Shown here: positions 50,721 to 52,513 of the stretch, piece after piece | Layout of the letters: every line of letters starts with the position of its first letter | How positions within the stretch are numbered: the first letter of the stretch is position 1 | NCBI GenBank assembly: GCA_012862575.1 | Contig: BLSF01000047.1 | Span: forward strand, 63,853 to 127,852 | DNA from: Parietichytrium sp. I65-24A | Lineage: Eukaryota; Sar; Bigyra; Thraustochytrida; Thraustochytriidae | Reading direction: 5' to 3' | Length of the DNA: 64,000 nt | The notes under the pieces: generated by a model | The model's database searches: none | Seen by the model: only the letters and a program-made list of their open reading frames with translations | What the model was told of the DNA's origin: nothing | Position numbers and translations under genes: made by a program

Positions 50721-52513
50721 ATGCAGACGTTCGAAGAGCTCCGCAGCGCGAGCAAGTTTGAGCTCCCGGTGGAGGAGATGGACGGAGTCAGCGCGAAGCA
50801 GCTGTTCCAGATTTGCGCCATGGGAAGGGGGTTCACTTTTGATGATCTTATTCTGCTCCCAGGGCAGATTGACTTTGGCGTGCAGCAGGTGTCGCTCAAG
50901 TCCAAGCTTACCAAGGATATCGAGATCAACACCCCGCTCGTGTCTAGGTGAGTTGTCATTGGAGGAGTCTCGCTTGCGAATCTTTCCGTGAGCATTGTTC
51001 TTGGCTCTCTTGATGGACGGCCGGCTAACTGTTTGTTGGAAACCCATTTGCGCAGCCCTATGGACTCTGTGACCGAGGCAAACATGGCAATTCAGCTCGC
51101 TCTCCACGGCGGTGTGGGCTTTATCCATCGCAACAACACCATCGAAGAGCAGGCTGACATGGTGCGCGAGGTAAAACGTTTCAAGTCCGGTTTTATCTAT
51201 GAACCAGTGTGCATCCCACCACAAATCTCCATCAAGGACGTGGACGCACTTACCGTAAGTGGATGCTTGTTCATTTTTTCTTCTTTAATTTTCAAGTCTT
51301 TCTCTGCAGTGATCTGTCACTAACCGACGCTGTGTGTTTGACCGAAAACGAATGAACAAACACAATCTGTCTCGCGACGCAACAGGCCGACAAGAGCTTC
51401 ACCGCATTCCCAGTCACTGAGGACGGAAAGCCACACAGCAAACTTTTGGGAATTCTTACCTCCCGTGATATGGACTTTGTTGAGGACAGAGGTACCTCTG
51501 TAGATAAGATGATGACTCCGCTTGAGAAGCTGGTGACTCTCGAGGACGGCTGCACTTTAGAGGAGGCCTTCCAGAAGATCTGCGAATCCAAGAAGGGCAA
51601 GATCCCTGTGGTTAACAAGGATGGTCTTCTCGTTGCTTTGGTCAGCCGCAAGGATGTGCTCAAGAACAGAGACTGGCCGCTGGCAAGCAAGGACCCAAAC
51701 ACTGACCAGCTTCTTGTTGGTGCTGCTGTGGGGGTTGCAAACCCAGAAGAGGCCAAGGCTCGCATGAACGCCCTCGTGGAGGCTGGAGTTGACGTAATTG
51801 TCTTGGAGTCCCGACACGACTGCGCGCACGATGTTGAAATCCTGAAATTCGCCAAGTCATCCTACCCAAAGGTCCAGATCATCTGCGGAAATATCGTCAC
51901 TGAGAGGCAGGCTCGCACTCTTCTTGAGGCAGGAGTTGACGGCCTCCGCGTTGGTCTCGGAGTTGCATCCGTCGCGACTGGCCAGCTCGTGAAGGCAGTT
52001 GGCCGCCCACAGATGTCCGCCGTGTTTCATACCGCCGCAATCGCTCGCGAGTACGGCGTTCCAGTGATTGCTGACGGTGGAATTAAGAACTCTGGCTGCG
52101 CAATCAAGGCGCTCGCTCTTGGAGCCAGCACCATCATGATGGGATCCCTGCTCGCAGGAACAGAAGAATCTCCAGGAATCTACTTTTTCCAGGACGGTCT
52201 CCGCCTGAAGAAGTACCGCGGTATTGGTAGCAAGGAGGCCCAGGAGTCCATCGCGTACAGCAACGGCGACGGCCCGACTGTGTACACTGGTGTTTCCGGC
52301 TCTGTCGTTGACAAGGGCAGTGTGCGCCGCTTCATCCCATACATTGCCCAGAGTGTTCGCCACGGTCTCCAGGACCTTGGAACCCGCTCCATCACCATCA
52401 TGCACGAGCAGCTCTACGAGGGCCGCCTTCGCTTCGAGGTGCGCAGTTCCGCCGCCCAGAAGGAAGGTGGAGTGCACGACCTTCACGCTTTCAAGACCAA
52501 CTACGTGCACTAA
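50721..52513 (+). CDS. IMP dehydrogenase homologue, three exons, catalytic cysteine absent
   Basis: Exons are 50721-50947, 51056-51254 and 51386-52513, with GT-AG introns of 108 and 131 bases. The product is 517 residues, normal for IMPDH, which converts IMP to XMP for guanine nucleotide synthesis. Splicing restores the conserved [11 protein letters not shown] block across intron 1. A CBS pair occupies about 125-250. IMP-site elements [10 protein letters not shown] and KKYRGIGS are kept, as are [11 protein letters not shown] and the EGGVH ending. However, the catalytic loop, normally GSGSICIT, reads GVASVATG, putting Ala339 where the active-site Cys should be. The NAD-side motif DSSQGN reads ESRHDC, with one residue fewer in that loop. 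By known mechanism this protein should not make the covalent E-XMP intermediate. It may be a pseudoenzyme or regulatory paralogue. Base calls at this loop are clean and in frame. Confidence 0.88.

Follow-up and report, generated by a model that had tools for sequence, protein, structure and literature searches.

An IMP dehydrogenase-like protein of a thraustochytrid that has probably become a regulator or sensor instead of an enzyme

IMP dehydrogenase, its mechanism and its inactive relatives

IMP dehydrogenase (IMPDH) catalyses the rate-limiting step of GTP synthesis. It is a target for drugs, and the way in which GTP-driven octamers control it has been well studied. According to PMC2525682, the Cys of IMPDH forms the covalent intermediate E-XMP*, and the Arg and Tyr of the mobile flap, together with a Thr of the catalytic loop, contact the hydrolytic water; hydrolysis becomes about 1000-fold slower when the flap Arg is replaced, and both steps become about 20-fold slower when the loop Thr is. 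The same text describes GMP reductase (GMPR) as having no Arg-Tyr dyad and a truncated flap, and as needing Cys186, Thr188 and Glu289, mutation of the Cys, Thr and Glu having compromised the E. coli enzyme. A structure of Trypanosoma GMPR carrying C318A has GMP bound, according to its title (6jig), so nucleotide binding can survive the loss of the Cys. In yeast Imd2, the exchange of Cys for Ala at the homologous position (C335A) yields a catalytically inactive protein (PMC11323793). A precedent for a dead paralogue that activates its partner is the prozyme of T. brucei AdoMetDC (PMC5201418). Among the matches listed in our search of the openly licensed literature, none described a natural IMPDH that lacks its catalytic residues, and none of those listed for the thraustochytrid and stramenopile literature concerned IMPDH.

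The IMPDH-like protein described here resembles eukaryotic IMPDH (human IMPDH1/2 and Ashbya IMPDH; TIGR01302) in its full-length domain order, its CBS pair and its octamer-interface and phosphate-pocket residues. Unlike these enzymes, it is without the catalytic Cys, the catalytic Thr and the flap Arg, its flap is shorter, its third GTP site is altered, and it carries D274E, M414I, Q441T and a deletion of G278 (human numbering). With T. brucei GMPR, which also has a CBS domain, it shares the fold (6jig), and a second likeness is the missing Arg-Tyr dyad and truncated flap (PMC2525682). However, the positions of the GMPR Cys, Thr and Glu are occupied by Ala, Gly and Thr, Glu289 being placed at human Gln441 by our own mapping, and the GMPR family models score far below their cut-offs (the best two reach 208.8 of 675 and 106.3 of 397 bits); with the required Cys and Thr absent as well, the sequence argues against a GMP reductase. 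Imd2 C335A carries the same Cys-to-Ala exchange as one engineered change (PMC11323793), whereas here the exchange is natural and comes with many others. The AdoMetDC prozyme is comparable as a dead paralogue with its fold retained and with an active partner as its possible target; it differs in fold, in pathway and in having a known partner (PMC5201418).

The gene, its relatives and its altered catalytic elements

We analysed a 64-kb window of the Parietichytrium sp. I65-24A assembly; positions below are those of this window, and all features of the gene lie on the + strand. The gene runs from an ATG at 50721 to a stop ending at 52513 and encodes 517 amino acids in three exons; the first-pass annotation had placed it at 51386–52513, which is exon 3 alone. 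Exon 1 (50721–50947), found in the spliced open reading frame and by tblastn within the window, encodes the beginning of the barrel domain, exon 2 (51056–51254) continues the barrel and begins the CBS pair, and exon 3 (51386–52513) holds the larger part of the CBS pair, followed by the catalytic loops in their rewritten form and by the stop. Intron 1 (50948–51055, GTGAGT...GCGCAG) and intron 2 (51255–51385, GTAAGT...CAACAG) are both of the GT-AG type. Ten open splice models were listed, encoding 507–518 amino acids and differing at the exon joints alone; exon 3 from the residues FTAFPVT onward is common to all ten, so the catalytic loops are untouched by the choice among them.

Membership of the family extends over the whole length. 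The protein scores 514.1 bits against a cut-off of 481.5 on TIGR01302 and 381.6 bits against 25.6 on PF00478, and is 52% identical to human IMPDH2 and 49–52% identical to the eukaryotic IMPDHs compared (human IMPDH1/2 and Ashbya). An AlphaFold model of exon 3 (pLDDT 80.4), which lacks the strands that exons 1 and 2 contribute to the barrel and served solely as a fold check, finds its best structure matches in human IMPDH1/2 and Ashbya IMPDH; its pLDDT falls below 50 at the rewritten loop (338–349), the flap (432–439) and the tail (505–517), so the model does not establish the geometry of the pocket and tail.

Among the best 80 of 559 relatives, the nearest by both sequence and tree are L003 (a cyanobacterial MAG), L004 and L005 (Vampirovibrionales), and identity to L003 is 54% with the loops removed. 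In a tree built without the loops, the IMPDH-like protein groups with these three (support 98/90) on a branch of 1.28. An alternative clade with human and Ashbya IMPDH, a hypothesis named after the first tree had been seen, is not rejected (AU p 0.073), and since the tree holds just three other eukaryotic sequences we claim no transfer. L004 and L005 are themselves of eukaryote type, catalytically intact and altered in GTP site 3, which fits their placement. More broadly, L003–L064 are bacterial MAG loci, Spirochaetota, Planctomycetota and Vampirovibrionales among them, with IMPDHs near the eukaryotic type. Two scans of viral contigs found no close relative and none with the same loops; their three matches (L001, L002 and L083) were weak or partial. 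L001 and L083 are excluded from all counts, and L002 gave no alignment row. Among phage records, 45 have matches, each under 60% identity.

To describe the active site we aligned the IMPDH-like protein with human IMPDH1, human IMPDH2 and 80 prokaryotic loci, the best 80 of the 559 relatives. The first-pass annotation had claimed that, after splicing, the catalytic loop reads GVASVATG with Ala339 at the catalytic Cys, and that the NAD motif DSSQGN has been rewritten with one residue lost; the alignment bears out both. The loop GVASVATGQ (residues 334–342, 51959–51985) lies within the spliced stretch formed by R330 and the 12 residues that follow it to 342. The position of human IMPDH2 Cys331, which is Cys in 82/82 canonical rows (the best 80 of 559 and human IMPDH1/2), is Ala339 (codon GCG, 51974–51976), and the catalytic Thr (Thr333 in human, Thr321 in T. 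foetus) is Gly341. The NAD loop is E283-S-R-H-D-C288 (51806–51823), with D274E, S276R and the deletion of G278, Asp274 being an NAD-loop residue of IMPDH; His286, at Gln277, also occurs in 15/80 prokaryotic loci (best 80 of 559). Ile422 (52223–52225) takes the position of Met414. The flap (residues 425–443, 52232–52288) is 6 residues shorter than in human IMPDH2 and contains no Arg, so that the Arg-Tyr dyad is absent, and Thr443 stands at Gln441; its Tyr433 aligns with human Phe431 and is readable as Tyr430 if the gap is shifted.

Beyond the exchanges already claimed, our alignment adds T333G, G328A, I330V, D274E, the loss of G278, M414I, Q441T and the shortened flap devoid of Arg. Eight positions, D274, G328, I330, C331, T333, M414, R429 and Y430, are each uniform in 80/80 prokaryotic loci (best 80 of 559), the catalytic Thr, the NAD-loop Asp, the Met and both dyad residues among them, and each of the eight is altered or missing in the IMPDH-like protein. 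L003–L005, in contrast, retain the loop GVGSICTTQ; D274 and the flap dyad are present in them as in all 80/80 prokaryotic loci (best 80 of 559). The comparison shows that the predicted protein has lost the residues carrying covalent E-XMP* (Cys) and its hydrolysis (Thr and flap Arg), and that its NAD loop has been rewritten. This gives a warning for annotation: NCBI's curated model for IMP dehydrogenase (TIGR01302) scores the protein above its cut-off despite the missing Cys, Thr and flap Arg, and would give it the name of that enzyme. On the same model L003–L005, the three intact relatives that were scored, reach 630–643 bits.

Nucleotide sites, octamer contacts and possible functions

The IMP-site motifs and the CBS pair had also been described as conserved, and each description holds in part. 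Among the residues that form the IMP site (S329, D364, G365, G366, G387, S388, Y411, G413, M414 and Q441), the first eight are kept, the first seven of them being those of the phosphate-ribose pocket, and the last two are changed (M414I and Q441T); N303 and R322 are also kept in the alignment. The Bateman domain (CBS pair, residues about 118–239, 51180–51676) is split by intron 2, and Pfam reports one CBS stretch in it, at residues 184–235. With residue roles taken from the Ashbya IMPDH study (PMC4660370), conservation of the CBS pair stands for the octamer interface, where 7/7 positions are kept, with the Ashbya residue at five and the human IMPDH residue at two, and for site 1, where 7/8 contacts have the Ashbya or human residue. 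It stands in part for site 2, with 6/10 contacts as in Ashbya (changed: N118S, A146T, G147A and T227K), and fails for GTP/GDP site 3, with 4/9 (changed: N118S, N200F, L224V, L229V and K245D; K240 is kept). Finger contacts are as in Ashbya at 4/7 positions within the aligned range, and the EGGVHDLH stretch near the C-terminus is kept. In the same Ashbya work, N200K desensitised the enzyme to GTP/GDP (PMC4660370). The Phe and Asp of site 3 (N200F and K245D) are also found in the catalytically intact Vampirovibrio IMPDH L005, with Tyr and Gly in L004, so the change at site 3 probably preceded the loss of catalysis; the idea that the two losses were acquired together is weakened by the same observation.

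We believe that this IMPDH-like protein has probably become a regulator or sensor instead of an enzyme. The reading that we prefer, with a rough probability of 0.45, is that of a maintained pseudoenzyme, still able to bind nucleotides, which joins active IMPDH as a dead subunit or sensor. A purine nucleotide would still be bound in the old IMP pocket, and ATP or GTP in CBS site 1 and perhaps in site 2. The dead subunit would then join the cell's own active IMPDH by way of the retained Bateman octamer contacts, perhaps also in mixed tetramers, and joining would change the activity of the active enzyme or its response to nucleotides. Mixed octamers might be locked less easily by GTP because site 3 is altered, which is the least certain step. 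Counting against this mechanism, M414I and Q441T touch the IMP site, and both site 2 and the finger contacts are kept in part, in the proportions given above; the yeast result with dead Imd2 described below also weighs against it and lowers our estimate. Hetero-oligomeric regulation of a true IMPDH, which the first-pass annotation had raised, is plausible because the octamer-interface residues of the Bateman domain are kept. A more specific version, by analogy with the prozyme of AdoMetDC in trypanosomes, is tentative: a highly expressed dead member might co-assemble with active IMPDH and set its GTP sensitivity, as a dedicated non-catalytic partner controlling guanine-nucleotide synthesis in this protist lineage. 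If the gene proves to be conserved, it would show that evolution can separate the regulatory part of IMPDH from its catalysis, and it would provide a naturally occurring means of probing how mixed octamers behave.

It is rather unlikely, although several observations would suit it, that the pseudoenzyme works outside IMPDH assemblies, as a free-standing purine-nucleotide sensor or as a moonlighting protein that binds, for example, nucleic acid or protein. The catalytic residues are lost while the CBS pair and phosphate pocket are largely kept, and the long branch (1.28) fits a new role. In the yeast report, moreover, overexpressed dead Imd2-C335A was like an empty plasmid for Imd2-GFP level and for time to confluence, which suggests that a dead subunit need not change anything (PMC11323793). 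However, retention of the octamer interface of the Bateman domain and of EGGVHDLH suggests that an IMPDH-like assembly still matters.

The preferred reading of a dead subunit or sensor also has to be set against the possibility of a purine-nucleotide enzyme whose chemistry has changed, for instance to a non-covalent route or a relocated nucleophile. Changed chemistry had been offered before as an alternative, and we consider it a slim prospect. The largely kept nucleotide pocket would suit such an enzyme, the flap retains Tyr433, and there are seven Cys elsewhere (32, 128, 198, 208, 288, 309 and 380), one of which, Cys288, lies in the NAD loop. However, the Cys, Thr, flap Arg, D274, G328 and Q441 are altered together. 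The position of Cys288 is Ser, Asn or Thr in canonical rows and Cys309 is also Cys in 2/83 other rows, a comparison by which neither is a clear new active-site residue.

Slimmer still is the chance that this gene is the organism's sole IMPDH homologue, its guanine nucleotides coming from salvage. Within the 64-kb window we found no second IMPDH, tblastn returning the gene's own exons and one 31-residue match (E 0.07), which would be in keeping with a sole homologue; however, the codon bias of a dead protein (see below) would be easier to explain beside an active partner.

Distribution of the losses, maintenance of the gene and window neighbours

The losses are clustered. We took as reference 65 eukaryote-type IMPDH rows (63 loci among the best 80 of 559, with human IMPDH1/2), in which 78 columns are invariant, and counted as catalytic regions the NAD loop (274–283), the Cys loop (325–334), the flap (417–441) and position 414. 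The IMPDH-like protein has lost 12/16 invariant columns in these regions against 4/62 elsewhere (Fisher 6e-8), the four being T72S, L121I, L209I and T252N. With all 82 canonical rows (the best 80 of 559 and human IMPDH1/2), the figures are 8/10 against 1/37 (Fisher 1.2e-6). Because the regions were picked with the active site known, and two of them had been named by the first-pass annotation, both P values are descriptive. At the 97% conservation level the protein has lost 17/106 columns; when each of the 62 full-length canonical rows was left out in turn, the worst had lost 5/107 and the median row none.

The earlier proposal of a maintained pseudoenzyme, here one derived from eukaryote-type IMP dehydrogenase, is well supported by these features of the predicted gene: the losses cluster in catalytic elements, neither the open reading frame nor the introns are damaged, and codon usage is strongly biased. 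The reading frame has no internal stops, the introns are regular and the splice sites intact. In a neutral simulation, stop-free runs numbered 21, 2, 0 and 0 of 200 at 10, 25, 50 and 75% of residues changed. Among 14 window ORFs, most of the others being stop-to-stop or with a guessed start and possibly including non-coding ends, the gene has the second lowest ENC (38.5) and the highest AAG fraction (0.91). Such a codon bias suggests expression but does not tell when catalysis was lost.

The long terminal branch, 1.28 against 0.82 for Ashbya, might point to a gene that was inactivated recently and is now decaying, yet the intact reading frame and splice sites, the 58/62 invariant columns kept outside the catalytic loops (65 eukaryote-type rows, loci among the best 80 of 559), the codon bias and the multi-base changes in the catalytic loops make decay highly improbable. 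An error of sequencing, assembly or gene model that masks a normal IMPDH is not credible even with runs of N in the window, the nearest (48309–49034) about 1.7 kb upstream of the ATG, since eight point changes, His286 for Gln277 among them, require at least 13 base changes and come with two in-frame indels. A single exon holds all of these differences, and each lies either within the catalytic loops or at position 414.

The window is eukaryotic, with ORFs matching COG7, TRAPPC9, kinesin and CFAP91, and scans of it with Rfam at gathering scores and for tRNAs returned nothing. Its runs of N, at 48309–49034, 11008–11032 and 1256, are assembly gaps or withheld stretches. A 928-residue ORF at 61096–63882 (−) begins with an XPG N-terminal match (E 2.9e-7) and carries, near its end, a Cys-rich stretch that we take to resemble a SWIM motif. 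At 11767–16557 (+) lies a 1596-residue ORF that matches PF25474 (TmcB TPR) and contains hydrophobic stretches recognised by eye. The strongest codon bias of the 14 ORFs (ENC 38.0) belongs to an M6-type metallopeptidase-like ORF (PF05547) at 20955–23159 (+).
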